Source of the DNA: Selaginella tamariscina
Lineage: Eukaryota; Streptophyta; Lycopodiopsida; Selaginellales; Selaginellaceae
DNA: 64,000 bases
Assembly (NCBI GenBank): GCA_003024785.1
Contig: PUQB01000599.1
Location: forward strand, 87,515-151,514
Direction: 5' to 3'
Shown here one piece after another: positions 4,673 to 39,976 of this stretch. The notes beneath the pieces are model-generated. The model worked only from the letters and a program-made list of their open reading frames with translations, did no database searches and was not told the DNA's origin. Position 1 is the stretch's first letter; each line of letters begins with the position of its first letter. The position numbers were made by a program, and so were the translations under genes.

Positions 4673-4680
4673 TATAAATA
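4673..4680 (+). promoter_or_regulatory. TATA box of the P450 gene
   Basis: TATAAATA preceded by GGAC, identical in context to the box of the divergent diterpene synthase. It lies only 37 bp before the chosen ATG at 4717, which implies a 5' UTR of about 10 nt if transcription starts at the usual distance. Confidence 0.6.
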
Positions 4681-4716
4681 GGTGGTTTTGTGAGGCTATG
4701 GAATTACGTTACAAAC

Positions 4717-12232: not shown

Positions 12233-12236
12233 ATAA

Positions 12237-12262
12237 ATGCAAGTTGTAACTAAAATGGGCAT
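12237..12262 (+). repeat. Left terminal inverted repeat of copy X
   Basis: Starts ATGCAAGTTGTAACTAAAAT and continues TGGGCAT. It pairs with 39948-39972 apart from two substitutions and one missing base in the right arm. It directly abuts the duplication ATAA at 12233-12236. Confidence 0.85.
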
Positions 12263-12701
12263 GGCTATAGTCCCATTTCCTAATAATTAGCAATTTTAAC
12301 TATTTAATTAGCATTTTCTAATATTAAAGGAATATTCTTTAGAATATATGTTTGAAAATAGAATATTTTTAGAACTTTAATAAATTATAACATTCATTGA
12401 ACAAAAATTAATACATTATAAGAAAGTATTAAATTATATAATATATTGCCTAATATAACAATTAAGGAAGAGCATAAGAGGTATTAATATTGATGTTGTT
12501 ATTAAAATATTAATATTTAAATATAACATTATTAATTAAAAATTTGTAGTAGTAATAATATATATAATATACAAATCCTATAATAATATAGCATATCGTT
12601 TTTAAATTTATATAGTTAAGTAAACAATTTGGTACTATTATTAAAGAGTTTATAATAATATAAATATTAAATATATGATATTTTATAATTTTGTAATTGC
12701 T

Positions 12702-14177
12702 TTAAGTTTCAGAAAACATACATTCCCTTGCAGTTTTGTTAATCGTGACTTTATCAACGTTAACGAATGGATTTAACATTAATAAAACATGTTGGGTCTT
12801 TTTGATTGGGAGACCATGTTTTCTCTAGGCATCCATTATATCTTTCGCTCTTCTTCTCGTGTCGCCTTTTTTGTGGTTTGAACCATGCAACTTTAACAAT
12901 ATTATTTTTTGTGATTACTTTAGATGTGTCGATAATTTGACCCATCCAAATAAACTGATTATATGACGCATCTGGAGTAATGAGAATCATCATTAATTTT
13001 TGAAAATCCTAGCAACAATCAAAGTATACTTTAGGTTTTTGGTTCCTTTGTCCAACAAAGTGTGGGGTTTGCACTTCCACATCACTACTGGCTTCTATGT
13101 CGTCTGTGCTCAGTGATGTCATTTTAATCTCCTCTCGCCACCTTGTTTTAGGCCAAAAAGGGTGTTGCAATTCTGTACTTGTGACAATAGGCCCTTTTAA
13201 CTCTCGAACAACAGTCTTTCAATAGTCAACCACATGCTTATATAGTACTGAGTAACCAGTTGCCTTATCAGAATTCTTGGGCATCGATTTTTGAACCCAT
13301 GCCACATATTTTTGATGCCATCAATAATAACCTCTTGTTCCTTGAGCTGGGCACTCAATAGAATAGGGTCTGATTGTCCTTCTAGGAGAAGTGGCTTTCC
13401 ATTCTCCCTTTTGAAGAGTATTAACCCTCTTTCGGTAACCATTCCTGCTCTGATGGCTGTAACTTGTATTGTATATCTTTTATATACTCCTTGAGAAATT
13501 TTTTGAAGTCTAGTACCTCAATCACAAGCAAAGCACAACTTTTTTTGGAGATGCAGTTTTCAAAAAGATTCATCATATGCGATTCATCATAACCTTGCTG
13601 AAGAACACATCAATATCTTCATGAGTGTGACCAACCATAAGAAAACTGAGTGTGATTGTCTCAAACACACCTTTGGCAACAAGCATTGACAAGTATGCTA
13701 GCACATATCTAGAAAATAAAAGTAAGTATGAGTTTGAAAAACCCTTAAGTAAAATGATTTACTTATTTTTGTTCTCACCTGCACAATTATCCATCTGTAA
13801 AAGCAAATGACAAGGAAGTTTATTTAATGTTGAGGACACATGTACACTATTTGAGCTAGATCCCTCTAATGAACCTGAACTCTCAACAGGGCCATTTGTT
13901 TTTTGTGCAAGCTGCTGACAATGCCTTTCATATTCCCAAGTAGCCTCAAGTGCAGACGTGTTCATGAGAGCATTATGTAAAGGTTGAAGGTGTTGTTTCT
14001 TCACTTTGAGATCACTGATAGGATGTGTCTGTGAGTGGGCTTCAAGGTTTCTGAAACAACACTCAATAGTAAAATTGGAGTCGCTAGACCAATGTGGAAG
14101 TGAAAAGTGTCCATATGACTCACAACCGTGTTCATGTGTTAGCACACCTGTTAATGAAATTGGAAGTTTCATGACAT
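12702..14177 (-). pseudogene. Copy X transposase gene, 3' half (DUF7869-like DDE)
   Basis: Minus-strand C-terminal half of the transposase, cut off at 14177 by the inner copy. The protein-level match to the inner copy runs to the same stop (TAA at 12702-12704, after a segment ending ECMFSE). It keeps QMDNCAGENKNK near 13790 and a segment matching LFKRENGKPLLLEGQSDP near 13400. Compared with copy Y it has lost stretches, including part of the region after the GHTHEDID motif, and has several frame breaks. The 5' half resumes at 27916. Confidence 0.85.
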
Positions 14178-14202
14178 ATGCATTTTGTAATTAAATGGGC
14201 AT
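14178..14202 (+). repeat. Left terminal inverted repeat of copy Y
   Basis: ATGCATTTTGTAATTAAATG then GGCAT; homologous to 12237-12262 with three substitutions and one missing base. The shared similarity with copy X continues inward (GGCTATAGTCCCATTTCC). Confidence 0.85.
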
Positions 14203-14672
14203 GGCTATAGTCCCATTTCCTAATAATTAGCAATTTTAGCTATTTAATTAGCATTTTCTAATATTAAAGGAATATTTTTAGAATATATATTTAAAAACAG
14301 AATATTCTATTTTGTAATCGACCCTTTAATAAATTATAGCATTCATTGAACAAAAATAATAACATTATAAAAGTAAAAGGTATTAAATTATATAATATAT
14401 TAAGCCTAATATAACAATTAAGGAAGAGCATAAAGGTACATTATATAAATATTGATGTTGTTATTAAAATATTAATATTTAAATATAACATTATTAATTA
14501 AAAATTTGTAGTAGTAATAATATATATATATAATAAAACCTATAATAATATAGTCAATCTTCCATATCGTTTTTAAATTTATATAGTTAAGTAACAATTT
14601 GGTACTATTATTAAAGAGTTTATAATAATTATGAATATTAAATATATGATATTTTATAATTTTGTAATTGCT

Positions 14673-17600
14673 TTAAGCTTCAGAAAACATACATTCCCTT
14701 GCAGTTTTGTTAATCGTGACTTTATCAACGCTTCTTGACATCCACCCATATCGAATGGATTTAACATTTATAAAACATGCTGGGTCTTTTTTATTGGGAG
14801 ACCATGTTTTCTCTAGGCATCCATTATATCTTTCGCTCTCCTTCTCGTGTCGCCTTTTTTGTGGTTTAACCATGCAACCTTAACATACTATTTTCGTGAT
14901 TACTTCAGGTGTGTCGATAATTTGACCCATCCAAATAGGCTGATTATATGACATCTGGAGTAATGAGAACCATCATTAGTTTTTGAAGATCCTTGCAGCA
15001 ATCAAAGTATGCTTTAGGTTTTTGGTTCCTTTGTCCAACAAAGTGTGGGGTTTGCACTTCCACATCACTACTGGCTTCTATGTCGTCTGTGCTCAGTGAT
15101 GTCATTTCAATCTCCTCTCGCCACCTTGTTTTAGGCCAAAAGGGTGTTGCAATTCTGTACTTGTGACAGTAGGCCCTTCCAACTCTCGAACAACAGTCTC
15201 CCAATAGTCAACCACATGCTTATATAGTTCTGAGTAACCAGTTGCCTTATCAGAATTCTTTGGCATCGATTTTTGAACCCATGCCACATATTTTTTGAGC
15301 CATCAATAATAACCTCTTGTTCCTTGAGCTGGGCACTCAATGGAATAGGGTCTGGTTGTCCTTCTGGGAGAAGTGGCTTTCCATCCTCTCCACTTTTGAA
15401 GAGCATTAAGCCCCTTTCGGTAACCACTCCTGCTCTGATGGCCGTAACTTGTACTGCATAATAGGTATACCATCTCGTATGGAGAAAAAGAATTGTAGCG
15501 GCACAAGGTGACCAACTAAAGAATCACTCCCTTCTTTTATATACTCCTTGAGAAATTTTTTGAAGTCTGGCACCTCAGTCACAAGCAAAGCACAACTTTT
15601 TTTGGAGATGCAATTTTCAAAAAGATTCATCATATGCGGTAAGGTAAGTGCACTTGTCCTTTTTGTAGAGTTGGAGACCTTGCTGAAGAACGCATCAATA
15701 TCTTCATGAGTGTGACCAACCATAAGGAAACTGAGCGTGATTGTTTCAAACACACCTTTGGCAACAAGCATTGACAAGTATGCTAGCACATATCTAGAAA
15801 ATAAAAGTAAGTATGAGCTTGAGAAACCCTTAAGTAAAATGATTTACCTATTTTTGTTCTCGCCTGCACAATTATCCATCTGTAAAAGCAAATGACGAGG
15901 AAGCTTATTTGATGTTGAGGACACATGTACACTATTTGAGCTAGATCCCTCCACTGAACCAAACTCTCAACAGGGCCATCTGTTTTTTGTGCAGGTGTTG
16001 ACAATGCCTCTCATATTCCCAAGTAGCCTCAAGTGCAGACGTGTTCATGAGAGCATTATGTAAAGGTTGAAGGTGTTGTTTCTTCACTTTGAGATCACTG
16101 ATAGGACTTGTCTGTGAGTGGGCTTCAAGGTTTCTGAAACACATGGCTAACGACCCAATAGTGAAATTGGAGTCGCTAGACCAATGTGGAAGTGAAAAGT
16201 GTCCATATGACTCACAACCGTGTCCATGTGTTAGCACACCTGTCAATGAAATCGGAAGTTTCATGACATTTCCAAGGCACTTTGGTGTTGCAAAGAGCTT
16301 TGGAATGCTGGTCTTTGAATGATCCATCTTGTCATGGATCAAGCACAGGTACTCTGATGGGCGTGACACAGAAAGCATGCGGTGTGCATAGTACTGAGAC
16401 CGGCAAGTTTGTTGTGCAATCATGTGGGCCTCCATCTTCTTTTGAATGGGTGATCTCCACCAAGGTTTTTGCACAAGCCTCTGCAGCCTTCAATGATGTA
16501 CAAGTGTCACACTTGAAAAGCTAAGTGTTTTGCAATCTCCACATCCTTAAAATGAGTATTCCATATGTTGTTGAAGGTACCAGTGCAGATTGCTTGGAGC
16601 CCCATCAAACTGAGGCACTTGTTCACATGTTCACACTTCAATTGAGTGTAGATTGAAGGCAAAACCTTGAGATTTTCCCTGACCCCTGCATTTGTGGTTC
16701 GGCATTTGTGCATCCTGTCTGCATTTGCTTCCACAAAAGCCTTGAGTATCTCTATGGCTGCCATGATGTGAGAGCGGGTTTTGACCAAGCGAGTGTTCCC
16801 ATGAACTGAGGTTCGCGCTCCATCTAGCCACTCATCCCTCCGACGGTAGAACGTGGTCTTTGGGATCCCGTATATACTGTACCAAGCTTTGAAGCAGATG
16901 GCCACCTTATTAAATACCATGGATGTACTCTGATAACCTGTGTCCGAGGCCATTCCATCAATACACCCAGTTAGTGCAGCATATACAAACTCATGCCTTT
17001 GCTTTTGGGTGAGCATACGAAAGACATGTCTACATTGGGTAATTTCATTCCGGTCTGCCATCTGACAACACTTCTTCTTGCAACAGTCAATCGTGGAAAT
17101 GCTCGTAACACTTTCGGAAGATGTAGGATCCATCTTTACCCTCTTGCTGAAACTTGCAGGGGAAGATCTACAACCCATGAATCGCCTTTTTCTTACAATA
17201 GGACCAATGCAAGGAACCTCTTCAAATATGAGTTGTTCTTCCGGGTTGTTATTATTGAAATCCAACCCAGAATATGTTGAACCATCTTGCCGTCTTAATT
17301 CAGATGTTCACCTCACGAGGGATCCAGGATACAATGTGCCATTAGGTGAAACCTCTGTCACAACTACACCCACGAAGTCGGACCCTAGTTTCTCTTCTGA
17401 CACTGCTTCCATTGGATTTATAGCTGTGATGATGCCTCTTCCGACTTCAATCTCACGAAGAAAGAGAATCACCTCATCCATCACAGCAGGCAAGCCATCA
17501 TCTGGTAAACTCGTGCTACTATTTGTTTGTGACTCTGCATATTCTGTGTCAGCCTTGACTTCATCCAAATTCCACAATACAGGAGAACCCTCCTCAAATT

Positions 17601-17769
17601 CCATTCCCAGAACCTCAACATGCTTGTAAATGGTGTTCACCCATACGTACACACAAGATCCTTGGGCAATATTGTGACATGATGCATTATTATCTCGAAC
17701 TTCCACAGTTCCAGTGCCAACTATCTCGTTGTTCCGAAGAAGACATACTTTATCTCCAGTATTAAACAT
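14673..17769 (-). CDS. Copy Y DDE transposase, DUF7869-like
   Basis: Predicted transposase of the element. The chosen start is the ATG at 17769, just after a 3' splice site (cut before 17775); the stop is at 14673-14675. One clear intron spans 15847-15794 (54 nt). The N-terminal 150 residues (17769-17308) begin with a compact GDKVCLLRNNEIVGTG segment of unknown fold. A basic, Cys-rich stretch and a WYSIYGIPKTTFYRRRDEWL helix-turn-helix-like segment follow. The catalytic core shows three acidic landmarks: LIHDKMDHSKT (near 16330), LLQMDNCAGENKNR (near 15880) and VGHTHEDIDAFFS (near 15700). These are the pattern I recall for DUF7869 proteins, read as an RNase H-like DDE/D fold. Frame breaks occur near 17310, 16520, 15960 and 15300-15180, so this copy does not encode a continuous protein as assembled. 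Family assignment is from memory of motifs, not a search. Confidence 0.75.
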
Positions 17770-17775
17770 ATTGTC

Positions 17776-18553
17776 CTGCACATAAATAATTGTATTATTT
17801 ATGATATCTGTTTATGCAATATTTCTAAGAAATCTGAATTACGGTTACTTAATAATATGCATATGCAATAATACATAATTATGTTTAGAGATAATATCTC
17901 ATGTTTGATTAATACAACTGATGGGCGGGATTAATCCCGCCCATCCCTCCGACGAGGAACGGTCGGCGGGATTAATCCCGCCGACTCAACCCCTTCGGAG
18001 AGAGTCGGCGGGATTAATCCCGCCCACAATTCTTACGACGGGGAATGGGTGGCGGGATTAAACCCGCACATAACTCTCTCCAAAACTATGATTTCAAAGA
18101 GATCTCGGGATAAATCCTGTCCCCAAATCCTTAAAACAGGGAAGTGGTGGCGAGATTAATCCCGCCACCCCTTCCCTGCCTCCTAAAATGGTTGGCGGGA
18201 TTAATCCCGCCGACAACTCTTTCTAATAAATTCTGGTAACTCTTCATCAGTTGAGAAGGTTATCGGCGGGATTAATCCCGCCACTCTTTTTCAGTGGCGG
18301 AGAAGCATTGCCCGAGATGGTGGCGGGATTAATCCCGCCACCTCTTCGAAGAGGCGAAAAAGAAATGGCCGGATTAATCCCGCCGCCCGGTTAACCTAGA
18401 ATATTAAGTTAAAAGGATATTTAAACGGGATAAATCCCTAACGGAATATATTATAATCCTAATGCATTCCTAAACCCCTAAATTGTAATTTTAAGAGAGA
18501 ATGTAAGAGAGTGAATCTTTATAAGTATTTTTAAATTTGTTTATAATACTTAC
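17776..18553 (-). other. Putative 5' leader intron of the copy Y transposase
   Basis: On the minus strand a strong donor (CAA then GTAAGTATT at 18553) and an acceptor (TTATGTGCAG ending at 17776) bracket this stretch, just before the transposase ATG at 17769. Both sites are conserved in copy X (30583 and about 29420). Palindrome array 1 lies wholly inside. The leader exon upstream (about 18554-18600, containing AAGGCGCCGTGCTTTCC) is one of the best conserved non-coding parts of the two copies. Splicing is inferred, not shown. Confidence 0.5.
17920..18440. repeat. Palindrome array 1 of copy Y (~10 units)
   Basis: About ten copies of an 18-bp perfect palindrome, GGCGGGATTAATCCCGCC, spaced roughly 40-60 bp apart. 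Outer arm bases vary yet stay self-complementary: GATGGGCGGG...CCCGCCCATC, GTCGGCGGG...CCCGCCGAC and GGTGGCGGG...CCCGCCACC. Spacers also hold small self-complementary pieces such as CCTCTTCGAAGAGG. The array is GC- and CpG-rich inside AT-rich DNA. The last units are decayed (AACGGGATAAATCCC at about 18425). Confidence 0.9.
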
Positions 18554-18599
18554 TTGTAAACAGCACTGAAGGCGCCGTGCTTTCCTATAAAGAATAGCA

Positions 18600-21040
18600 C
18601 CCAATTTAATCTCGCTCCTGAGATGATCACTATGAAGAAAAAAGAAGATCTAAAGAGTGAAAAATACAGAAATGAAGAAACCCTTGCCGGAGAAAGAACC
18701 AGATCTGAATTTGAGTGGGAAATTAAATGCATTTTCAAATTTACATGTCAGACCGACAATACATATGTCAGAAATTCAAATTTTTTAAAAAAAAGAAAAT
18801 AAAATTTAAGATGAGTTGACACAAATATCCGACACTCTGACATATATACTCTCCAGTTCCAATGAGTATTTTAAAATTGCATTTAATGTTATTCAAGTGA
18901 TTCAAGCTGTTTAATATTACGAAATTTTAGACTATATTCTACATTCTTAGTATTCAAGTATATTTATATTATATATATATAAATATATACTTATACAATA
19001 AATAAATTGATATATTTATGTATCATTAAAAATATATTCATAGTCTGTTTATTATTATTATTTTCTTAATTACTCGAGTATTTAGTTTTCATTTCCTAGT
19101 ATCAATGGGATATTCTTTATATTTTATTAATATTTGAAGAATATTCTAATATTAAACCTGATTATCATAATTAAATTAGTCTTGTTCTTAATTATTGCAG
19201 TAATTATTCTACATTTGTATATATTAATGGGATTTTCTCAATTAATTTGTTATTATTTCAAGAATATTCATGTGTTAAACCTTATTATCAATATTAAATT
19301 AATATATATTATTAAAACTATATATGACTATATATTAGATAAAATGATGTATTATTATGTATAATTTAAAATATGTTCATAGTGTGTATATTAATATCAT
19401 TTCCTTAATTACTTGAGTAATTAATCTTCTTTATATTAATGGGATATTCTTTATTATTTTCTTATTATTCCAAGAATATTCCAATATTAAACATGATTAT
19501 GATAATTAATTTAGTTAATTATTTGAGTACTTAATTTACATTTGTATATATTAATGGGATTTTCTCAATTAATTTCTTATTATTTCAAGAATATTTCAAT
19601 GTTAAACCTTTTTATCAATATTAAATTAATATATATTATTAAAACTATATATGGCTATATATTAGATAAAATCATATATTATTATGTATAATTTAAAATA
19701 TGTTCATAGTGTGTTTATTAATATTATTTTCTTAATTATTCGATGTTTGTTTTGCACACATATATAAACACAATCATAAATTTACACACGCATTACAAGA
19801 ACTTACAAAAACACATATGCACACACATGCACAACCCTAAACCAAACTGAAGAAATATGTTGCTTCTTTATTGAAAATCATGTTCAACGCATGTATGATA
19901 TATGTACTCAATCTGTGTGTATGTAACACATTGAATTTACATGTGTAATATTTATATTAAGCTTGTTGGGAGCAAACCCTAAACCCTAAAGTGTATACAT
20001 GTGTGTACAAAAATAATTTTTCAACACTCTCTCTTCACACCATGCATGATCCATCCTAAACCCTAAACCCTAAACCCTAATATGTAACACAATGAATTTA
20101 CTCATGTAATATGTATGTATGTCTGTGTGTATACACGTGTGTATGTATATATGTGTACTCTGTATGTATATATGTGTACTTTCTCTCTTCTCTCATACAT
20201 ACACACCATGCATGATCCATGTTAATATGTACTGTCTCTCTTCTCTCAAACATACACACCATGCATGATCTATAATATGTACTCGGTCTCTCTAATATTA
20301 TGTACTAATATGTATGTATGTCTGTGTGTATAATACACATGCATGATCCATAATATGTACTGTCTCTCTTCTCATATACTATGTATGTATATCTGTGTAT
20401 AATATGTGTAAGTATATATGTGTACTAATATATGCAATGTGTACAAAAATAATTTTTCAACACTCTCTCTTCTCTCATACATACACACCATGCATGATCC
20501 ATCCTAAATCCAAAACCCTAAACCCTAAACCCTAAACCCATGTAATATGTATGTATGTCTGTGTGTATACACGTGTGTATGTATATATGTGTATTAATAT
20601 ATGCAATGTGTATGAATTTAATACTTTAACACTCTCTCTCTTTCTCATGCATACACACCATGCATGATCCATGTTAATATGTACTGTCTTCTTCTCTCAA
20701 ACATACACAATATGATCCATAATATGTACTCTGTCTCTCTAATATTATGTACTAATATGTATGTATGTCTATGTGTATAAAACTATGTGTGTATGTATGT
20801 ATTGATACACATGAAACTTTAACACTCTCATGGACACACACATGTTAAATCCCTGCATGATTTATATTTTTGGGGTGTATGTGATACACCCACGCACACG
20901 CACGCGCTAATAATATAATGAAAGAATATTCGTTTAGGGCGAATCTATATTTTATTCTTTTTAGGGTTTAAGTATATTCTCAGAAATTTCTATTAGGGTT
21001 AATATATATATTTAATTCCTTTAGGGTTTAGGTATATTCT
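18600..21040. other. Copy Y non-coding core between divergent units
   Basis: No convincing gene. About 19020-19745 is very AT-rich and contains a tandem duplication with a period of about 320 bp, marked by ATATTAATGGGATTTTCTCA near 19225 and again near 19550. About 19780-20860 is a minisatellite built on pieces such as CATACACACCATGCATGATC and TGTATGTATGTCTGTGTGTA. Runs of two to four CCCTAAA telomere-type repeats occur near 19976, 20052 and 20515. Near 20935-21048 TTAGGGTTT motifs precede the presumed leader exon of the ParB-like gene, in the position of telo-boxes in plant promoters. The region probably holds both divergent promoters. Confidence 0.6.
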
Positions 21041-21089
21041 TAGGGTTTCAAGAGGCGGCGGCTGTGCACACAGGTGAGATCTGTGTGTG

Positions 21090-21384
21090 TGTGTGTGTGT
21101 GTATATGTATGTATGTATATGTATAGGAGTGTGCGTATAATTTTATTTATTGATCTATCTCTCGCACACACACGCACACTCCTGTGTATATATATGTGTG
21201 TGTGGGTGTGTGTTTGTTTATCTGTATGATTTTATTTGTTTCGCTCACACACGCATACACACGATATACATATACACATATATATATATACCTATATACA
21301 TATATACATACATATATTATGTGTACCAGTATCTATAAATTTTTTTTATTGATCTATCTCTCCCACACACACGCACACTGCTTT

Positions 21385-21415
<31 letters not shown>

Positions 21416-21884
21416 CAATGCATATTAAAAATAGTATACAACACTAGTTTATATATATGCTTATATATTCACGACTCTCTCTCTTCTCTATGGGTTATAT
21501 ATCTATATACACTATATATATGTGTGTGTTTATCTGTATAATTTTATTTATTTATTAGTTTTATCTTTCGCACACACGCACCCACTCCTGTGTATATATA
21601 TGTTGTGTGTGTGTTTGTTTATCTGTATGATTTTATTTGTTTCGCTCACACATACACACGATATACATATACACATATATATACCTATGTACATATATAC
21701 AACATATATTATGTGTACCAGTATTGTATAATTTTATTTTATTTATTTATCTCTTGCACACACACGTACACTCCTATACATACATACATACATACATTAT
21801 ATATATATATATATATACATATATATGTGTGTGTTTTTATCTGTATATTTTTTTATTTATTAATTTTATCTTCGCAACACTAAG
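21090..21884. repeat. ~200-bp minisatellite with CA/TG and TA tracts, copy Y
   Basis: Three to four imperfect units with starts near 21141, 21341, 21545 and 21740. Each contains a TTTTATTTATT stretch, a TCTCTCGCACACACACGC tract, ATATACATATACACATATAT and TTATGTGTACCAGTAT. Reading frames through it are low-complexity artefacts. Confidence 0.7.
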
Positions 21885-22770
21885 CCCTCGAGCGGTGGAT
21901 TAATCCCGCTCTAGGACAAACCGAAGAGCGGCGAGATTAATCCCGCCGCCACCATGCCCTGCGCGGAATGCGGCAGGATTTATCTCGGCAATGGCCTGTG
22001 TGAAGGCCCTAATGGGCGGGATTAATCCGCCGGATTCCGCGCAGGGCATTTACAGGGGATGGGCAGGATTAATCCTGCCGCTCATCCGAAGTGCCTGCAT
22101 GAAAGATCATGCATGGAAGGCTAACCAAAGAGCTGCATAACATGTCCTGCACGTAAGGCGGCGGGATTAATCCCCGCGCCCAGGGAATTCACGCAGGACA
22201 TGAACGGCGGGATTAATCCCGCCCCACGCTCATGCCCTTCGCGGAGGGCGGCGGGATTAATCCGCCGCTCAGCACTTCCGCAGGATATAAGCGGCGGGAT
22301 TAATCCCCCCCACCCATCCCTGTTCAAAATGCCGCGGGATTAATCCCGCGCCAATATATATGTGTGAGCGCATATTTACGAGAGGGCGGCGGGATTAATC
22401 TCTCCGAACCTTCTATGCCCGGTGGCAGGATTAATCCCGCCACTTCTTTTTTTCTCCATTGGTTTTGAATCAATCTCGATTAACTCTGTCTGAGACGGAG
22501 AAGGTTTACAAAATACCAATGGAGGGAACTGAGAAGGGTGGTGGGATTAATTTCACCATGCCTCCTAAAAGAGTGGGCGGGATTAATCCCGCCGCCTTTC
22601 TGGAGCCCCTGAAGGGGTGTGAGAATAAATCCTGCCCAATTCTCTCTGAGAACGAGAAAGGTGGCGGGATTAATCCGCATACCCATTCAGGCCTCCAGAA
22701 AGGTGGCGAGATTATCCCGCCCATTTTTTAGGAGGATAAAATGTGGCGAGATAAATCCCACGCACCTTCC
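21885..22770. repeat. Palindrome array 2 of copy Y (~18 units)
   Basis: About eighteen units of the same GGCGGGATTAATCCCGCC palindrome, more diverged than in array 1. Many units keep matched arm changes (for example GGGCAGGATTAATCCTGCC), others have lost symmetry. It lies about 0.4 kb upstream of the first coding exon of the ParB-like gene. Spacers here include CATGCCCTGCGCGGAAT-type GC-rich pieces that differ from those of array 1. Confidence 0.9.
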
Positions 22771-23135
22771 ATGTGAATATATATGTTTATGACTATATAT
22801 AAGTTGCATATCTCATTTTGTTTACTTTTATCATCTTATCATAATATTTTTGCTTATCATAATATTTTGAGTAAAAGCCAGTAAACCATGTATAACTGTC
22901 CAAAGCTCACATTTGTGGTGGTTCTAAAACCAAATGTTATCAGTTTTTTGCACTATCACAAATGTTACTTCGGCAGTTAATCCTGTCCACTTCTCTTAGG
23001 TGTATGTGATTTATCAGTGTATTATTTTTGTATATTCGGGTTTAAAAAGTGTTTGTGCGTTTTATATAAATTGTATTCATATGTATTATTTTGCAGAAGG
23101 ACGATTTAATCAAATAAGGAGATTCAGTGATTAGT

Positions 23136-26206: not shown

Positions 26207-26309
26207 CGAATAGTTGTAAATGAGTGTAACATAAGGCATTTTTGTATATTTCGTTTATATTTGTACAGAAAATAAATTCTCAAGGATTAATGAAGCTTTT
26301 AGTTCAAAC

Positions 26310-27885: not shown

Positions 27886-27911
27886 ATGCCCACTTTAGTT
27901 ACAACGTGCAT
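27886..27911 (-). repeat. Right terminal inverted repeat of copy Y
   Basis: ATGCCCACTTTAGTTACAAC followed by GTGCAT; reverse complement of the left ends with a few substitutions. The duplication ACAT follows at 27912-27915, and copy X's transposase gene then resumes. Confidence 0.85.
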
Positions 27912-27915
27912 ACAT

Positions 27916-29413
27916 TTCCAAGGCACTTTGGTGTTGCAACGAGCTTTGGAATGCTGGTCTTTGAATGATCCATCTTGTCATGGATCAAGCACAGGTACTC
28001 TGATGGGCGTGACACAGAAAAATGCAGCTTGCATAGTACTGAGACCGGCAAGTTTGTTGTGCAATCATGTGGGCCTCCATCTTCTTTTGAATGGCAGTGA
28101 TCTCCACCAAGGTTTTTGCACAAGCTTCTGCAGCCTTTAATGATGTACAAGTGTCACACTTGGAAAAGCTAGAGTGTTTTGCAATCTGCACATCCTTAAA
28201 ATGAATATTCCATATGTTATTGAATGTACCATTGCAGATTGCTTGCAGCCCCATCAAGCTAAGGCACTTATTCACATGTTCACACAGCTTCAATTGAGTG
28301 TAGATCGAAGGCAAAACCTTGAGATTTTCCTTGACCCTTGCATTTGTGGTTCGGCATTTGTGAGGCATCCTGTCTGCATTTGCTTCCACAAAAGCCTTGA
28401 GTATCTCTATGGCTGCCATAATGTGAGAGCGGGTTTTAACCAAGCGAGTGTTCCCATGTATTGAGGTTCGCGCTCCATCTAGCCACTCATCCCTCCGACG
28501 GTAAAACGTGGTCTTTGGGATCCCGTATATACTATACCAAGCTTTGAAGCAGATGGCCACCTTATTAAACCATGGATGTACTCTAATAACCTGTGTCCGA
28601 GATCATTCCATCAATACACCCCATATACAAACTCATGCCTTTGCTTTTGGGTGAGCATATGAAAGACATATCTACATTGGGTAATTTCATTCTGGTCTGG
28701 CATCTGACAACACTTCTTTCTTGCAGCAATCAATCGTGGAAATGCTCGTAACACTTTTGGAAGATGTAAGATCCATCTTCACCCTCTTGCTAAAACTTGC
28801 AATGGAAGATCTACAACCCATGAATCGCCTTTTTCTTACAATAAGACCAATGCAAGGAACCTCTTCAAATATGAGTTGTTCTTCCGGGTTGTTATTATTG
28901 AAATCCAACCCAGAATATGTTGAACCATCTTGCCGTCTTAATTCAGATGTTCGCCACCTCATGAGGAATCCAGGATGCAATGTGCCATTAGGTGAAACCT
29001 CTGTCACAACTACACCCACGAAGTCGGACCCTAGTTTCTCCTCTGACACTGTTTCCATTGGATTTATAGATGTGATGATGCCTCTTCCGACTTCAATCTC
29101 ACGAAGAAAGAGAATCACCTCATCCATCACAGCAGGCAAGCCATCATCTGGTAAACTCGTGCTACTATTTGTTTGTGACTCTGCATATTCTGTGTCAGCC
29201 TTGACTTCATCCAAATTCCACAATACAGGAGAACCCTCCTCAAATTCCATTCCCAGAACCTTAACATGCTTGAAATGGTGTTTACCCATACGTACATATA
29301 AGATCCTTGGTAATATTATGACATGATGCATTATCATTTCGAACTTCCACAGTTCCAATGCTAACTATCTCGTTGTTCCGAAGAAGACATACTTTATCTC
29401 CAGTATTATACAT
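27916..29413 (-). pseudogene. Copy X transposase gene, 5' half
   Basis: N-terminal half of the outer copy's transposase, with an initiator ATG (MYNTGDK) at 29413 just after a conserved acceptor. It keeps the regions that match copy Y (VLWNLDEVKADTEYAESQTN near 29200; SIYGIPKTTFYRRRDEWLDG near 28500; MDHSKTSIPKLVATPKCLG near 27950). It breaks off at the ACAT target at 27912-27915. Frame interruptions near 28560-28690 and 29290-29330 differ from those of copy Y. Confidence 0.85.
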
Positions 29414-29562
29414 ATTGTCCTGCACATAAATAATTGTGTGATTTATGATATCTGTTTATGCAATATTTCTAAGAAATCAGAACTGCGGTTGCTTAATAAA
29501 ATGCATGTGCAATAATACATAATTATGTATAGAGATAATATCTCATGCTTTATTAATACAAT

Positions 29563-30472
29563 TGATGGGCGGGATTAATCCCGCCCACGACTCCCTCCGA
29601 CGAGGAATGATGGGCGGCATTAATCCCGCTGCCGACTGTACCCCTTTGGAGTGAGCCAGCGGGATTAATCCCGCCGACGAAGCTACCCTTTCGGAGAGAG
29701 TCGGCGAAAAATCCTGCCGTTGATTCCCTCCCACGAGGAAGACCGAGGGCGGAATTAATCCTGCCATGGACTCCCTCCGATGAGGAAGAAGCGGTGGATT
29801 AATCCCGCCCTCGGATCTTCCTCGTCGGAGAGGCGGTGAGATTAATCCTGCCGTGGACTCCCTCCAATGAGGAAGTATCCACGGATTAATCCCGCCGCCG
29901 GATCTTCCTCGTCGAAGAGAGGCAGCGGATTAATCCCGCCGCAAATCCCTCCGACAAGGAAGAGGGGGCAGGATTAATCCTGCCCACAACTCTGACGATG
30001 GGGAATAGGCGGTTGGATTAATCCCGCCCACAACTCTGACAACAGGGAATAGGCGGCGGGATTAATCCCGTTCACAACTCTTTCCGAAGATATGATTTCA
30101 AAGAGATCTCGGGATGAATCATGCTCACAAATATTTAAAACAGGGAAGTGGTGGCGAGATTAATCCCGCCACCCCTTCTCTGCCTCCTAAAATGGTTGGC
30201 GAGTTAATCCCGTCGACAACTCTTTTTAATAAATTCAAGTAACTTTTTATCAGTTAAGAGAGTTATTGACAGGATTAATCCCGCCACTCTTTTTAAAAGG
30301 TGGAGAAGCATTGTCCGAACTAATTCTGCCATAACTATCAAAGAGATGGTGGCGGGATTAATCCCGCTACCTCTTCGAAGAGACAAAAAAAAATGGCCGG
30401 ATTAATTCCGGAGCCCCGGCTAACCGAGAATATTAAATTAGAAGTATATTTAAACGGGATAAATCCCTAACA
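29563..30472. repeat. Palindrome array 1 of copy X (~19 units)
   Basis: Same unit and flanks as 17920-18440 but almost twice as long, with about nineteen units. The extra block has a period of roughly 50 bp with spacers like GACTCCCTCCGATGAGGAAG, absent from copy Y. Several units show symmetric arm changes (GGGGCAGGATTAATCCTGCCC). Confidence 0.9.
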
Positions 30473-30584
30473 AAATATATTGTAATCCTAATGCATTCCT
30501 AAATCCCTTAATTCTAAAATTTAAGAGAGAATGTAAGAAAGTGAATCTTTATAAATATATCTAAATTTGTTTATAATACTTACT

Positions 30585-31007
30585 TGTAAACAGCACTGAA
30601 GGCGCCGTGCTTTCCTATAAATAATAGCGCACCCAATTTATGTCGCTCTTAAGCTGATCACTAACAAGAAAAAAGAAAATCTGAAAAGTAAAAAATAAAG
30701 AAATAAAAAAACCCTTGCCGGGGAAAGAACCAGATCTGAATTTGAGTAGGAAATTAAATGCATTTTCAAATTTACATGTCAGACCGACAATACTTATGTC
30801 AGAAATTCGAAATTTTTTGAAAATAATAGAAAAGAAAATTTAAGATGAGTTGAAACAAATAATTAACAATTTGACATATATACTCTCCAATTCCAATGAA
30901 TGTTTTAAAATTGCATTTAATGTTATTCAAGTGATTCAAGCTGTTTAATATTATGAAATTTTTGTAATTATTCTACATTCTTAATATCAAGTATATATTA
31001 TTAAGTT

Positions 31008-31064
<57 letters not shown>

Positions 31065-33070
31065 TAATACAATAAATAAATTGATATATTATTATGTATC
31101 ATTTAAAATATATTCATAGTTTGTTTATTATTATTATTTTCTTAATTACTTGAGTAATTAATTTACATTTCCTACTATTAATGGGATATTCTTTATTATT
31201 TTCTTAATATTCAAAGAATATTCCAATATAAACCTGATTATCATAATTAAATTAGTCTTATTCTTAATTATCTCAGCAATTATTCTACATTTGTATATAT
31301 TAATGGGATTTTCTCAATTAATTTGTTATTATTTCAAGAATATTCCTATGTTAAACCTTATTATCAATATAAATTAATATATATTATTAAAACTATATAT
31401 GACTATATATTAAATAAAATGATGTATTATTATGTATAATTTAAAATATGTTCATAGTGTGTATATTAATATCATTTTCTTAATTACTTGAGTAATTAAT
31501 CTTCTTATATCAATGCGATATTCTTTATTATTTTCTTATTATTTCAAAAATATTTCAATATTAAACATGATTATCATAATAATTTAGTTAATTATTCAGT
31601 AATTGATCTACATTTGTATATATTAATGGGATTTTCTCAATTAATTTCTTTATTTCAAGAATATTCTAATGTTAAACCTTATTATCAATATTAAATTAAT
31701 ATATATTATTAAAACTATATATGGCTATATATTAAATAAATCATATATTATTATGTATAATTTAAAATATGTTCATAGTGTGTTTATAATATTATTTTCT
31801 TAATTATTCGATGTTTGTTTTGCACACATATATAAACACAATCATAAATTTATATATACACGTGCATACACATTAGAAGCACTTACAGAGACACATATGC
31901 ACACACATGCACATTGTCCTAAACCAAACTTGAGAAATTATATGTTGCTTATTTATTGAAAAACATTATGTTCAACGCATGTATGATTTATATATACTCA
32001 GTCTGTGTGTATGTAACACATTGAATTTACACATGTAATATATATGTATGTCTGTGTATACAAGTGTGTATGTATATATGTGTACTAATATATGCAATGT
32101 GTACGATTTTCATTTGTTAACACTCTCTCTCTTCCTCATACATACACAGTGTCACAATGCATAATCCCTTCTCTCATACATACACACCATGCATGATCAC
32201 GATCCATAATATGTAGCTTGTCTCTTCTCTCATACATACACACCATGCATGATCCATAAATGGCTACTGTTATAATATTAATATGTAGAATGTATATCTG
32301 TGTATAATATGTGTATGTATATGTGTACTAATATATGCAATGCGTACAAAATTAATTTTTTAACACTCACTCCTCTCATACATACACACCATGCATGATC
32401 CATCCTAACCCTAAACCCTAAACCTATGTAACACATTGAATTTACACATGTAATATGTATGTATGTCTGTGTGTATACACGTGTGTATGTATATGTGTGT
32501 TATTAATATAAATAATGTGTATGAATTTAATTTGTTAACACTCTTTCTCTTCTCTCATACATACACACCATGTATGATCCATATTAATATGTACTGTCTC
32601 TCTTCTCTCAAACATACACACTATGCATGATCCATAATATGTATTGTCCCTCTTCTCTTAAACATACACACCATGCATGATCTATAATATATACTCTGTC
32701 TCTCTAATATTAATATGTATTAATATGTATGTATGTCTGTGTATAATACTATGTGTGTATATATGTATCGTTGCACGTGAAACTTTAACACTCTCATGGA
32801 CACACACATGTTAAACCCCTGGATGATTTTATTCTTGGGTGTATGTGATACACCCACACACACGCACACGCTGATAATATAATGAAAGAATATTTGTTTA
32901 GGGCGAATCTATAGTTTATTCTTTTTAAGGTTTAAGTATATTCTTAGAAAGAATATTCAATTAGGGTTAATATATATTCTATTCCTTTTAGGGTTTAGGT
33001 ATATTCCTAGGGTTTCAAAAGTAAGGCGGCGGAGGCGACAACTTGAGATCAAATCTCTCTCTCATACACA
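30585..33070. other. Copy X non-coding core
   Basis: Counterpart of 18600-21073: conserved transposase leader exon near 30584-30640 (GGCGCCGTGCTTTCCTATAA), AT-rich tandem duplication at about 31080-31800, a (TA)n run at about 31012-31052, minisatellite with CCATGCATGATC units at about 31850-32800, a short CCCTAAA run near 32406, and TTAGGGTTT motifs at about 32960-33015 before the leader exon that ends at 33071. No gene seen. Confidence 0.6.
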
Positions 33071-33099
33071 GGTGAGATCTCTCTATCTCTCTCTCACAC

Positions 33100-33213
33100 A
33101 CACACTCTTGAGTTATTTATTTATTTTTTTATTCACATATATATTTATATGTGTGTGTATCTTAATAATATAATTTAGATCTCTATCTCTCGCACACACA
33201 CGCACACTCGTAT

Positions 33214-33285
<72 letters not shown>

Positions 33286-33406
33286 TTGTGTTTATGTATC
33301 TGTATAATTTTATTAATTTATTAACTTTATCTCTTGCACACGCACGCACACTCCTGTTTATCTGTATGATTTTATTTGTTTCACTCACACATGCATACTC
33401 ACGATA

Positions 33407-33437
<31 letters not shown>

Positions 33438-33535
33438 ATACCTATATACATATAATATACATACATATATTATGTGTACCAGTATCTGTATAATTCTATT
33501 TATTTATCTATTTCTCGTACACACACGCACACTCC

Positions 33536-33580
<45 letters not shown>

Positions 33581-33955
33581 GTGTGTGTGTGTATCTGTAT
33601 GATTTTATTTGTTTCACACACACATACACACGATATACATATACACACATATATATATATATACCTATGTACATATATACATACATATATTATGTGTACC
33701 AGTATCTGTATAATTTTATTTATTTATCTATCTCTCGCACACACACGCACACTCCTGTATATACATATACATATACACATATATGTGTGTGTGTGTGTGT
33801 ATCTATATAATTTAATTTATTTAGCACACACATACGATATACATATACATATACATATGTGTGTGTGTATCAGTATAATTTTATTTATTTGTCTATCTCT
33901 AGCACACACACGCACTCTCCTACACACACATATACATATGGATATATATGTGTGT
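33100..33955. repeat. CA/TG/TA minisatellite, copy X
   Basis: Four to five imperfect units of about 170-215 bp, marked by TTTATCTATCTCTCGCACAC starts near 33180, 33500 and 33720. Includes long (CA)n runs at about 33217-33252 and 33541-33578. Homologous to 21090-21884. Confidence 0.7.
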
Positions 33956-33956
33956 G

Positions 33957-34862
33957 TAGCAGCGGGATTAATCCCACCGTTATATGGTTAGACCCTCGGC
34001 GGCGGGATTAATCCCACTGCCCTTCAAGCAGGCTATTCAGTTAGCCTCATGAGCGGCGGGATTAATCCTGCCGCCCATGAAGCTAACCAAAGAGCGGCGG
34101 GATTAATCCCGCCGGCCATGGCTGTGTGCTAGGGCCTAGGCGGCGGATTAATCCCGCCTACGCATGCCCTGCGCGGAATCGGGCGGGATTTATCCCGCCG
34201 CCATTGGCCTGCCTGAAGGGCCTAGGCGGCGGGATTAATCCCGCGATTTCGCACAGGGCATTGGCGTTCGGCGGGATTAATCCCGCCGCCATGGCTGAGT
34301 GTGGGCCTGGCGCGGATTAATCTCCGCGTACGCATGCCCTGCGCGGAATCGGGCGGGATTATCCCGCCGCCAGGCCTGCCTGAAGGCCTAGGCGGCGGGA
34401 TTAATCCCGCCCGATTCGCAGGGAATTGGCGTCCGGCGGGATTAATCCCGCCGCATAGGGACCGAGTGAAGGCCCTGGGCGCGGGATTAATCCCGCCGAG
34501 CCTTCAATGCCTGTTGGAGGAATGAATCCCGCCACCCTTCCTTTTTCTCCATTGGTGAGTCGGACCAATCCCAAACGTTTCTGTCTGAGACGTAGAAGGT
34601 TTACAACATACCAATGGAGAGAACTGGGAAGGGTGGGAAATTCATTTAACCATCCCTTACATGGTGGGCGAGATTAATCCCGCCCCTTTCTGGAGTCACT
34701 GAAGGGGTGTGAAAATAAATCCTGCCCAGTTCTCTCTGAGACCGAGAAGGGTGGCAAGATTAATTCCGCACTCCCGTTCAAGGCCTCCAGAAAGGTGGCG
34801 AGATTAATCCCGCCCACTCTTTCAGGAGGCATTGAATGAAAGATTAATCCCGCCGCACCTTC
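33957..34862. repeat. Palindrome array 2 of copy X (~20 units)
   Basis: About twenty palindromic units in 0.9 kb. A higher-order duplication of several units is visible around 34137-34260 and 34310-34450 (CGCATGCCCTGCGCGGAATC repeated). Units such as CGGCGGGATTAATCCCGCCG are perfect. Confidence 0.9.
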
Positions 34863-34970
34863 CATGTGAATATATATGTGTATTAGTATATATAAGTTGC
34901 ATATCTCATTTTATTTACTTTTATCATCTTATCATAATATTTCGAGTAAAAGCTAGGAATCTATGTAAAA

Positions 34971-35053
34971 CTGTCCAGAGCTCACATTTGTGGTGGTTCT
35001 AAAACGAAATGTTATCTTTCTTTTGCACTAGCACAAATGTGAGCTTTGGACAG
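34971..35053. repeat. 22-bp inverted repeat (hairpin) downstream of array 2, copy X
   Basis: Arms 34971-34992 (CTGTCCAGAGCTCACATTTG...) and 35032-35053 (CACAAATGTGAGCTTTGGAC...) are reverse complements with one mismatch around a loop of about 40 nt. In copy Y the left arm is intact (about 22897) and the right arm has decayed. Confidence 0.7.
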
Positions 35054-35196
35054 TTAATTACGTCTACTTCTCTCTGTGTATTATTTTTGTATATTCGGGT
35101 TTATACAAGTGTGTGTGCGTTTTTATATGATTTGTATTCATAGTGTATTATTTTGCAGAAGGACGATTTGATAAACAAGGAGATCGAGTCATTAGT

Positions 35197-38100
35197 ATGG
35201 AGTCGTCGTCAAATTCTGGGTAAGAATTAAAATAAAATCTGTTATACTCGGATACTTGAACTAATCATTTTTGTATTCAGATGTGGAATTGAGGTGACAT
35301 TAAAGACAAGAGCAGGAGAAGAGATGGGCAGGGGGATTCTGGAATCAACTTGGCCATATTTAAATAAATGGGAAGCGCATTGGACAACCATGGTTGCTGT
35401 CAAATTAACCTCTGTCACATCGCATGGACAAGCAAAACAATGGAAAGTGGGTTGCTAGTCAAGCATCCGAAAGCATGCTGTGAACCCAGATTGACGATGC
35501 TCGACACATATGCCTTGTTCCATCCAATGTCACGTTCTCGGATCCAGAGGTCGCCAGTTACAACATTAATTTCGGGTGGTTTTGTCGACTTGTGGATAAT
35601 GACGTTCACGTGTTCACTAATGATGTTGACCTTGGAGTTCTTCTTCAACTCAACGAAAGCCCATCTATGGAGGGGATCCATCTGGATGTCTACTTCGAAG
35701 ATCTTCAGACTCATCGAGTAGGTGTATTGTCAGGAGATATTGCTTCACAATACAGAAAATCAGCAAGTGGAGCAATCGTTCCCTCTTCACATTGAAGAAG
35801 AACACAGCGACATCATAAGGAGATTGAGAGGGTGGCTGGTCTCAGGTTCTTTACAGATCACGTTCAATTTGCTTAGAATTTGGGAGCTGGAAGAGTGTGC
35901 CGAGAACATTAGAACAGCTCAATCGGGGATCACACATGTTGATTCGGATCGTAAAAGAAAATCATCGTCGTTTTGTCAGCTGCACCTGTGGCATCATGCT
36001 GCAATAAGCCACAAGGAAATGATGTTGGATGATAGATTTACTTGTAGGGTTAATATTGCAGCGTCAACCCAAACTTCAATTACAGGCCACTCAACCAGGA
36101 ACGTGTAGCTGAGCTCATGGAGAAGATGAAGGACGACAATTCTTACACCGTTCCACATAATGCTGTTTTGTGTCCATACTACGAGAGAAAAAAGGCGCTG
36201 ACAAAGTGTGGATCACAACACCAGAACAAATCAGGAAGATTCAGACGGAGAATAAAAATCATTCAAGTACTACATCATTAGTGGCCAGCACACAATAACG
36301 GCAGCCCAACGACTTCTCGACGAACACAACAAAGGAACGATGGCAACAAAACTTTCCGAGCATACCCGTGAGAAGCTGAAAAGATCGGCGTTTTTAGCTA
36401 AGCCGAATCTCACAATCGAGCAGTACCATAAGTTATCGGCGGAATGGGACGCTGCGACACCAACCACTACAACAGCAAAATATGGGAGAAGTTAAACACA
36501 CGCGAGCCGTGTGGGAATCTCTTCAGCGACCACAAAGAGCTACCGCAGGGAATACACAATCTGCGGATACCGGGTAAGCAAATTGTTTGGGCGGGATTTA
36601 TCTCGCCGGTATATTAATCTGTCTTTTTTCCTCAGAGAGTTGAAGAAATTGTAGCAGTTGATTTTGCCCAGGTGGGCGGGAAGGAAACATCCTTTCTGAT
36701 GATGTTGATTTCTTGTCCCGAGATAGGATCTTTGCCAAATGGTTGGGGATTATGGAATCCTTTTCAAAAGGAACACTGAAGAAGAAGCAGACAAGTGAAG
36801 GGGAGCCCTCAGAAAGTCTGCAAAGAAACCCAGTAAGACGCCGAAGGCTAAGTCTGTTCAATCTACAAAGGATGTAGACAACGATTTCAAGCTCACATGG
36901 TTGAAGCCTTTAAATGGAACAACGATGGAGGAGATGGAAGTCTTGGCTGATTTGGTGATGATGGCAAACTACAAATTAACAACAGCAGCCCAACCTCTCC
37001 TTTTCATCTCAAGGCAATGGAGTTGAAGACGGTCAGGCATTTCAAGGAGTGGTTGGGAATACACTGCCACAAACTGGGTTGGACCTCGCTTCAACATATG
37101 AAGAGGTCAGCAAATATTTGCATGTGACAAACGATGATATGCTTGTCGAATGGGTGAACCAATCGGAAGATCTGGGCAAGAATCTATTGCACGCCAACAA
37201 AAAGGAGAACATTGGATGACGCCTTCTCTTATGGCAGTCCTTCAGCAGCGGAGAACCGAATTGAACCTTATAAAGGAGGATGCTACGAATCACGACAAGC
37301 CCTACAGATGTTTGTTGTTGGATTCGGAGACTTTATGGGGTACATCACTGCTTGTAGGAAACCGTTTCAATTGTTCGTGATGGATCGGCGGGTGTCAAAA
37401 AATCTTCGACAGGACACTAGAGGATTGGTGGAGAAACTTAGCCGTGCAAGCATATACAAAGAAGGTATTTATTATTGAATTCATGCTTGCACTCTTGACT
37501 GATATCTATTTTCAGGTATTTATTTCTTGATTCTTGCTCATGTCACCGATACTTTGCCTTCGCCTTTGCCAAGAGAATAAACATCGTTGGACAGGATTTT
37601 ATATGAACGATGCTAATCCAAGTGCATTGATCGGTTGTTCACTTGGTTGTTAGGAATGCGCCAAACAATTTCAAACTTCCAAATGACTGGCCAGGCATCT
37701 GTTTGCACTCCAACGGCCCTGAACCTCCATCCGATACACCGATAGGTAGAGTGACGTATTCGGCAATGTACGTTATCCAAACATTACAAGTCAAGCGGCA
37801 CGGAGCATCGTCAACTTGATCAGGGGTCCTCACAGTGATGCGTGGGTTTTTGACTACTGCACTAGGGGGTCCGTCTTGAAGGAGTGTTACCTTCGGCATA
37901 CATGTGTGTTTGCCGTTGAAAAGGATAAGACCATGGTTGAGGACCTGAACAAGTGGATAGAGAGGTCTCAACTGAGTACCCCAACGAATCCATAAAGGAG
38001 TATTTGAGAAAGTTCCCTCCAGATAAGTGCGATAGCTCTGAAGGTGAATCTGGTTCAATCGGAGTCTGGACGAACTTCAATCAGATATTAGACCGGAAGT

Positions 38101-38257
38101 TATCTCGAGGAGTACAGAACATTCGCACACTCCAGGACCCATGGAAACATCAATAGAAGATGCAGAAGATCTTGAACCATCTCACAAGCGGCTTAGACCT
38201 TCTTCGCCTCACTCAGAAGGTAATAGCGAAGAAGAATTGTTAATGAATTTAGAGTGA
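35197..38257 (+). CDS. Copy X ParB/sulfiredoxin-like plus DNA-methyltransferase-like protein
   Basis: Same layout as 23136-26206: short first exon MESSSNSG (35197), intron to about 35280, ParB-like block (VNPNFNYRPLNQERVAELM at the protein level near 36060-36120; CCGR-type start replaced by ISGQHTITAAQRL near 36280), Lys-rich linker (about 36775-36850), QLFVMDRRV near 37375, methyltransferase motif I-like FDYCTRGSVL near 37850, acidic tail with KRLRPSSPHSEG, stop at 38255-38257. The motif IV substitution (DRRV for DPPY) is shared by both copies, so it predates their split. Frame breaks occur in places mostly different from copy Y. Confidence 0.65.
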
Positions 38258-38359
38258 CGAATAGTTGTAAATGAGTGTAACATAAGGCATTTTTGTATAT
38301 TTCTTTATATTTGTACAGAAAATAAATTCTCAAGGATTAATGAAGCTTTTAGTTCAAAC

Positions 38360-39685
38360 ATGGGTCACACATTAACAAGGTAAATAATATACCTTGATAA
38401 TTTTAAGGTCAGCTAATTATCATTTTGCAGATGTAATGAAAATTGAGAACATGGATTTTCAGCATTGCATGAGGTAAGAGAGGGGTTTGGCGACAATTTC
38501 TTGTGCCACATGTCAGAATGACAGAGTTCATGCAGGAAATGGATAATAATGCAGCTCAAAACATCGTTACCATGGGGGCCACTTCAGTTTTTCATCATCA
38601 TTTTTATTGGCTTCAGTTCCGAAATCAATTTCTTCAGCGCATGCAATATCTGAATCTTGTAAGGATGATGTACAATTAAATGATGAAGGGATAGGCAACG
38701 AGATAGTGGCAACGGATAAATGTGAAAGGGAGCAAACAAGTGATTTGCAAAGTATTCAAGAGGCAACGCTATCTCATGTTACTCATGGCCATATTGTGTT
38801 GTTGGATGTCAATGGTGTTCTGCTTCATCGACAAAGGCCCGAGGATAGGAAAAAAGAAATCAAACAAGGAGATTTCATTCCTTGTCATGGTAAATTTCGA
38901 TATGATATTATTTTTCGTCCAGGGTTGGATCGTCTCTTTCAAAAGCTTAAGGAGATGGGTGCGCTTGTGGGGATTTGGTCATGCATGCAGATTCATAACT
39001 TAACACCGCTGTTGAATTTACTTAAGAAACATTGTAGTGTTGCAGAAGAGGTGATTCGTAAAGATTGGATTTTTGACCAGCGAATGTTATAAACCTCTCG
39101 AATTTCACAATATAAAAAGGAAAGCAAGCCATACTTCTTCAAGAATGAAAGAATAATTGGGACTCATGGGGAGATCAGTCGCTTAAGGATAATGAAGAAT
39201 GCACAGATGTTAGTAGTAGACGACTCTCCTCAGAAGGCTATGCTCAACCAAAACATTGCTTGTATTCATCCAATCACTTTCGATCCATATTCTGATACCG
39301 ATATCATGGATGAGCTAGTGAACTACTTGGATACGTGCCTCAGAAAGAAGAATCTCGAAAATTTTTGTGAGCAGTATCCACCGTATCATACATTTCCTGA
39401 AGCTTTTCTTTCTCGTGATTTGAATTTTATAAAATGAAGGATAGCAACCGGGCGCTTTATAATATTATTCTTAAGGAACGTCAGTTTTTAGATGAGCCTT
39501 TATGCAGACCTTCTCTTATCACATCTTATGTATTAACAAGGATGGCAACTCCCAATTGCATTCGTGAGAGTGTTAAGTGGTGGCAACAACATCAAGATAT
39601 TGACCAAAATGATTTGATTAATCCGGAGAGTGATGATTTAGACAAAATGAAGATTTCTTTGTATGATAGAAGAAAGTATTTATAA
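38360..39685 (+). CDS. Copy X FCP1/NIF-type HAD phosphatase-like protein
   Basis: Better preserved than the copy Y version. One uninterrupted frame (38607-39092) carries LLDVNGVLLHR, RPGLDRLFQKLKEMG and GIWSCM; after a break near 39085 a second carries LVVDDSPQKAMLNQN and the NYLDTCLRKKNLENFCEQY tail; after another near 39420 the frame runs to the stop at 39683-39685. The first exons (MGHTLTR, then a segment starting CNE) match those of copy Y. Same family caveats apply. Confidence 0.7.
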
Positions 39686-39947
39686 AAAATTAACATGTTG
39701 ATAAGAAAATGATTTCATTTGTAATTATGTTTGATAGTATTTCTTCATTATTGTAAACTATTTTTAGAATAATATGAATATTCTAAGATATTTTAGGAAT
39801 ATTCCTTACTAAGTAAGGTTATTGAAGGATTAATTAATTAATTAATTAATATTTAAGGCTTAATTACATATTAATTAAATGATTAATTAATAATTAAAAC
39901 TTAAGTATTAATTAGTAATTTATTTTATATTCCCATTTTCACGTATC

Positions 39948-39972
39948 ATGCCCACTTTAGTACAACATGCAT
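39948..39972 (-). repeat. Right terminal inverted repeat of copy X
   Basis: ATGCCCACTTTAGTACAACA then TGCAT, complementary to 12237-12262. The duplication ATAA follows at 39973-39976. Confidence 0.85.
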
Positions 39973-39976
39973 ATAA

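Follow-up and report, generated by a model that had tools for sequence, protein, structure and literature searches.

We analysed a 64,000-bp stretch of Selaginella tamariscina DNA (hereafter the window; assembly GCA_003024785.1, contig PUQB01000599.1, positions 87,515–151,514 of the forward strand), and our data support the view that positions 12233–39976 of the window hold one DNA transposon inserted into an older copy of its own family, with the empty target site preserved. The element carries a gene matching the domain of unknown function DUF7869, a candidate transposase, and with a probability of about 0.68 we read it as belonging to a land-plant family of large, Sola-like cut-and-paste DNA transposons present in high copy number.

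Nested insertion and its empty site

All four junctions were read directly. The outer element occupies 12237–39972 between two copies of ATAA, and the inner element, 13,734 bp in length, lies at 14178–27911 between two copies of ACAT. Subtracting the insert together with one duplication (13,738 bp) from the 27,736 bp of the outer element leaves 13,998 bp, and the terminal inverted repeats (TIRs) of both copies are 26–27 bp long and have the form ATGCA...TGCAT. A preliminary description of this DNA had proposed a nested pair at 12233–39976, inverted ends of ~26 bp starting with ATGCA, ATAA twice around the outer and ACAT twice around the inner element, and copy sizes of ~14.0 and ~13.7 kb; the coordinates proved exact to the base and the other values agree with those measured here. 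The parts of the arrangement are as follows.

12233–12236, left ATAA target-site duplication of the outer element, read directly
12237–14177, plus strand, left part of the outer element, with TIR at 12237–12263, the exon 2 region of the DUF7869 gene and a portion of its exon 1
14174–14177, left ACAT duplication of the inner element, read directly
14178–27911, plus strand, inner element, with TIRs at 14178–14203 and 27885–27911
16266–16269, uninterrupted target ACAT in the transposase exon of the inner copy
27912–27915, right ACAT duplication of the inner element, read directly
27912–39972, plus strand, right part of the outer element, with TIR at 39947–39972
39973–39976, right ATAA target-site duplication of the outer element, read directly

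The two copies are colinear in self-comparison, with ~92% identity over 11.4 kb in six hand-picked blocks, the omitted repeat-rich blocks being lower, at roughly 75–90%. The inner copy entered exon 1 of the outer DUF7869 gene, between candidate catalytic motifs 1 and 2, and the outer gene is therefore broken. The preliminary description had located the uninterrupted target at the ACAT of 16266–16269, and the inner copy indeed keeps GACATTTCC there, within its transposase exon. A scan of 57 other loci showed this 27-bp empty site unbroken in 38, many of the remaining loci ending short of that part of the element. Thus junctions, empty site, 4-bp duplications and the genome-wide ends reported below agree with the earlier proposal of a plant DNA transposon nested in its own copy. 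Near C2:162011 the element shows a second case of self-nesting, rearranged and with a terminus that is partial and inverted.

Ends and target-site duplications across the genome

The genome searched comprised 300.7 Mb in 1,391 contigs and included the window. The terminal pattern, allowing up to two mismatches, gave 4,266 matches (2,191 forward and 2,075 reverse), and the same pattern read backwards as a control gave none in the 300.7 Mb. First-look candidates numbered 1,712 for the 323-bp left end and 1,366 for the right end, and 40 of each were scored. We tabulated the flanks of 16 end pairs and compared them with 240 mismatched pairings of ends: a perfect 4-bp duplication was present in 11/16 pairs against 10/240 mismatched pairings, and agreement at other lengths was 1/16 for 2 bp and 0/16 each for 3, 5 and 6 bp. 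Excluded from the 16 were C68 and C84, where left and right ends belong to different elements (the right end of C84 is that of a 246-bp derivative), C458 (whose left end could not be placed), C25 (for which L023 showed no left end), C1:182274, C1:2054336 and C2:162011 (no right end within 17 kb), and C1:2087177 (decayed right end). Two further duplications lie outside these pairs, TTTA/TTTA at C1:2368660 and ATAA/ATAA at C1:912565, the latter with a flank identical to that of C1:931173.

We read 17 kb of sequence at each of ten places, which came from the first eleven of 100 listed, the one skipped being the partner end of another. Both ends were present in six of the ten, and each of these six showed a perfect 4-bp duplication; because two of them have the same flank, five are independent. 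TIRs bound many dispersed copies, and a duplication of fixed 4-bp length accompanies 11 of the 16 tabulated pairs, as expected of cut-and-paste TIR transposons. Over 52 distinct flanks, the four target positions tend towards A (54%), T (62%), A (50%) and T (60%).

Short derivatives that consist of termini only are also present: 34 of 40 scored matches to one such derivative measure 239–247 bp, and three short derivatives bear 4-bp duplications of their own (TTAA, ACCA and ATAT). This ~240-bp family, which keeps only the terminal sequences, is exemplified by C125:494566-494804 and C89:8887-9132. The identical flanks at the paired places C1:912565/C1:931173 and L019/L020 suggest segmental duplication or unmerged haplotypes.

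The DUF7869 gene

The minus-strand gene next to the left end matches PF25273 (DUF7869) with E = 1.2e-27 in the piece 15406–15843, and a second match, from another copy, has E = 1e-26. Its parts in the inner copy are listed below.

14600–17811, minus strand, DUF7869 gene, frame-broken, left limit approximate, with the PF25273 match
16507–17811 and 15941–16489, minus strand, exon 1 pieces
15794–15847, minus strand, 54-bp GT-AG intron, predicted from the sequence
15793 leftwards, minus strand, exon 2 pieces
16310–16336, minus strand, candidate catalytic motif 1, HDKMDHSKT
15847–15882, minus strand, candidate catalytic motif 2, QMDNCAGENKNR
15682–15717, minus strand, candidate catalytic motif 3, GHTHEDIDAFFS

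The reading frames of both window copies are broken. Longer open equivalents exist elsewhere (L052:4315-6291:+ and L042:6287-7462:+), with open stretches of 659 and 392 codons around the predicted intron, the 392-codon stretch starting within intron sequence. The acidic motifs HDKMD, MDN and HTHED, read by eye, look like an RNase H-type DDE/D triad: they follow one another in the order of such a triad, with ~38 residues between the last two, and the third motif, HTHEDID, contains both an E and a D as the possible acidic residue. Moreover, among 30 top-ranked loci fetched with the profile, the left end of the element lies ~1.3 kb from the DUF7869 hit in 29, which ties the protein to these ends. 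A domain to which Pfam assigns no function is thereby linked to mobile DNA whose ends and 4-bp scar are defined, so that the proposed role of DUF7869 as a transposase can be put to the test.

Palindrome arrays between the divergent genes

Between the divergent gene blocks of each window copy we found two arrays of the 18-bp palindrome GGCGGGATTAATCCCGCC, an observation added here to those of the preliminary description.

17924–18384, array A of the inner copy (GGCGGGATTAATCCCGCC and variants), ~0.1 kb upstream of the open DUF7869 reading frame
21893–22680, array B of the inner copy, ~0.45 kb upstream of where the plus-strand gene presumably starts
29568–30368, array A of the outer copy
33961–34814, array B of the outer copy

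Within the window, the core GGATTAATCC is confined to the two copies, with 18 instances in the inner and 20 in the outer. Of the ten fully read places, nine contain it 7 to 53 times and the tenth is a 245-bp derivative. The exact 18-mer has 27,128 copies in the genome. When 142 sites from nine copies were anchored on the left half, the right half was conserved at 82–99%, and the flanking bases dropped to 28–65%. Among spacings under 100 bp, 94 of 127 measure 40–46 bp, with a mode of 45; Tandem Repeats Finder reported neither array of the inner copy. The palindromes have stayed conserved while their spacers diverged, as would suit sites for a dimeric protein, and the arrays are probably binding sites of a dimeric regulator, which could be the element's own or the host's. 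Some palindrome arrays are located away from any known copy of the element, and at C1:2054336 the arrays adjoin only 560 bp of it; thus related families may share the palindrome. The arrays give a concrete example, open to experiment, of candidate protein-binding sites that a transposon carries in thousands of identical copies.

In the central region of the element, CCTAAAC units form runs that resemble plant telomere repeats (20055–20080 and 20503–20539).

Plus-strand genes

Two genes of the inner copy lie on the strand opposite to the DUF7869 gene.

23136–26205, plus strand, gene with no family match over the cut-off, frame-broken, limits approximate, start codon guessed
26716–27627, plus strand, NIF/HAD-type phosphatase gene, limits approximate, PF03031 with E = 3.3e-7

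The PF03031 match in a longer copy (L041:5504-6571:-) has E = 5.1e-12 and 46.2 bits, against a cut-off of 21.8. The stretch that would correspond to the catalytic DxD motif of this phosphatase type reads DVN, and phosphatase activity is therefore uncertain.

Pieces of the first gene gave nothing over the cut-off in Pfam, NCBIfam or PHROGs, and we take the match of one piece to a designed repeat protein in the PDB as a chance one (39 residues, E = 1e-4, no stretch passing alone). An accessory gene with ParB-like and methyltransferase parts, suggested by short motifs read by eye and by the Ectocarpus paper cited below, was dropped, as the searches did not support it. The best sub-threshold Pfam matches of these pieces had E = 0.087 and 0.12, NCBIfam and PHROGs returned none, and the best PDB matches had E = 0.55 and 0.3. 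By tblastn, the ParB-like piece had no match in plasmids and only chance-level matches in phages (E 2–10), and the methyltransferase-like piece, compared with phages, likewise gave only chance-level matches (E 2–10). PF02195 had neither matches nor first-look candidates genome-wide. The N6/N4 DNA methyltransferase profile PF01555 passed its cut-off at all 150 places that were scored out of 739 candidates (for example C565:331665-331829). Where coordinates were compared by eye, these places did not coincide with those among the DUF7869 matches listed, and they therefore look like another repeat family.

Neighbourhood of the nested pair

To the left of the pair lies a diterpene synthase-like N-terminal exon (3497–3988, minus strand; PDB match with E = 1.1e-15, no Pfam match), adjoined by a cytochrome P450 gene (4678–5640 and 5863–6297, plus strand), the two together falling in 2834–6297. 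By analogy with the momilactone cluster of the moss Calohypnum, they may possibly form a diterpenoid gene cluster. The window also contains a match to a pentatricopeptide repeat (PPR) protein. P450, PPR protein and diterpene synthase-like exon together indicate a land-plant host, and on this point the preliminary description, which had spoken of a plant element, holds.

To the right are two long terminal repeat (LTR) retrotransposons, Gypsy-like by reading (43882–48571 and 50525–55459), with reverse transcriptase in both and protease in the first; their direct repeats are 209 bp at 97.6% and 206 bp at 98.5% identity. A tRNA-Gly (gcc) gene is present at 56966–57038.

Proposed mechanism and alternative explanations

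The reading as a Sola-like cut-and-paste family starts from what was observed: the ends, the 4-bp duplication at AT-rich sites, the copies, the short derivatives and the self-insertion. On this reading, the DUF7869 protein would be a transposase of the RNase H-fold DDE/D type, relying for catalysis on acidic residues in HDKMD, MDN and HTHED. Bound to the ends, it would excise the element and join it to the target across a 4-bp stagger, and gap repair would yield the duplication. More tentatively, a dimeric protein encoded by the element or by the host might control both gene blocks through the palindrome arrays, and the phosphatase might be a passenger or a helper.

Several points weigh against this reading. 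The flanking 4-mers differ in 5/16 end pairs (C29, C7, C1:796446, C94 and C21). A usable right end is missing in four of the ten fully read places. Selection on the coding sequence is equivocal: each stretch is open in 11 of 30 loci, pairs more than 6% apart were dropped (10/55 and 26/55), and the ratio of non-synonymous to synonymous differences (pN/pS) is 0.14 and 0.28 over the kept pairs but 0.50 and 0.95 when counted by distinct codon variants; because the two counting methods disagree, we give this result little weight. The DUF7869 intron is predicted from sequence, and searches of the PDB with two DUF7869 pieces found no relative, one piece having no match up to E = 10 and the other a single chance match at E = 0.55. 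Moreover, transposition is deduced from sequence and not from observed events.

Less likely, in our view, the DUF7869 elements form a separate eukaryotic DDE/D superfamily in which the 4-bp duplication resembles that of Sola by coincidence. DUF7869 has no function assigned in Pfam, and among the papers searched none named DUF7869, PF25273 or a presumed InterPro number for it, the single hit being Sola1-1 in PMC12477816. No relatives were found in viral contigs, prokaryote contigs or plasmids, and the PF25273 profile had no match in 14 control genomes, although Sola is reported from bacteria in the part of PMC10741241 available. Against this alternative, size, 4-bp AT-rich duplications and the candidate DDD-like triad fit published Sola traits, and the searches without a match relied on single query sequences, on patterns suited to close relatives or on one profile run against few genomes.

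A bolder version appears doubtful to us. In it, DUF7869 would define its own superfamily of DDE/D transposases, represented here by a giant land-plant element whose divergent genes would be governed through the palindrome arrays by an element-encoded dimeric protein, and this family would have sown most of the ~27,000 identical sites through the 300-Mb genome.

A divergent CACTA/EnSpm element is very improbable. Elements of that kind are large, carry several genes and repeat arrays, and have CACTA ends and 3-bp duplications. The large size, the several divergent genes and the repeat arrays found here are alike, and the N-terminal part gives sub-threshold matches to Transposase_23 (E = 0.011 and 0.039; 16 and 14.2 bits, below the cut-off of 21). 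However, the ends read ATGCA rather than CACTA, 3-bp agreement was found in 0/16 pairs and the catalytic region matches DUF7869, and the ATGCA ends together with the 4-bp duplications speak against this assignment.

It is hardly credible that the nesting arose through faulty assembly or segmental duplication instead of insertion: many insertions and deletions break the reading frames of copies, two of the places read hold 2,500 masked bases and identical flanks occur at the two paired places named above, but an artefact would not yield base-exact 4-bp duplications at inner and outer junctions and an empty 27-mer intact at 38/57 loci.

Comparison with known transposons

The preliminary description had suggested that the element matches no well-known plant superfamily; this is weakened, since Sola was missing from the superfamilies it listed and published Sola traits fit. 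According to the part of PMC10741241 available, Sola elements encode a DDD transposase, generate 4-bp duplications, are mostly 2–9 kb with some over 15 kb, and have terminal repeats of 11–1124 bp; they were found in the moss Physcomitrella and seem uncommon in flowering plants. The partial text of PMC9033089 lists Physcomitrella Sola1 and has Sola1 in Capsicum as well. Sola is not mentioned in the Physcomitrium transposon paper PMC7466625 or in the Pohlia genome paper PMC9247546.

The present element has the 4-bp duplication, repeats of 26–27 bp and sizes of 13.7 and 14.0 kb, all in keeping with these values. With the plant elements, exemplified by Physcomitrella Sola1, it shares 4-bp duplications, a candidate transposase of DDD type, variable ends and large size, some Sola elements exceeding 15 kb. 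The passages on plant Sola that were available do not mention DUF7869, a phosphatase or palindrome arrays, and the likeness concerns described traits. We therefore label the element Sola-like and do not call it a proven member of Sola.

Two other Sola elements are instructive as far as the available extracts describe them. Sola1-1_Ec32 of Ectocarpus (PMC12477816) is 21.5 kb and, like the element here, is a giant whose accessory gene and transposase lie on opposite strands; its accessory protein differs in having ParB-like and DNA methyltransferase domains, neither of which was found by our family and sequence searches of the plus-strand pieces. Sola2-Fanzor of Dictyostelium fasciculatum and Polysphondylium pallidum (PMC3627910) likewise has AT-rich 4-bp duplications, short terminal repeats and a passenger gene, but its passenger is Fanzor1, whereas the passenger candidate here is the phosphatase. 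Finally, Sola is called uncommon in flowering plants in the available part of PMC10741241, whereas this one land-plant genome contains more than 4,000 recognisable ends of a Sola-like family.

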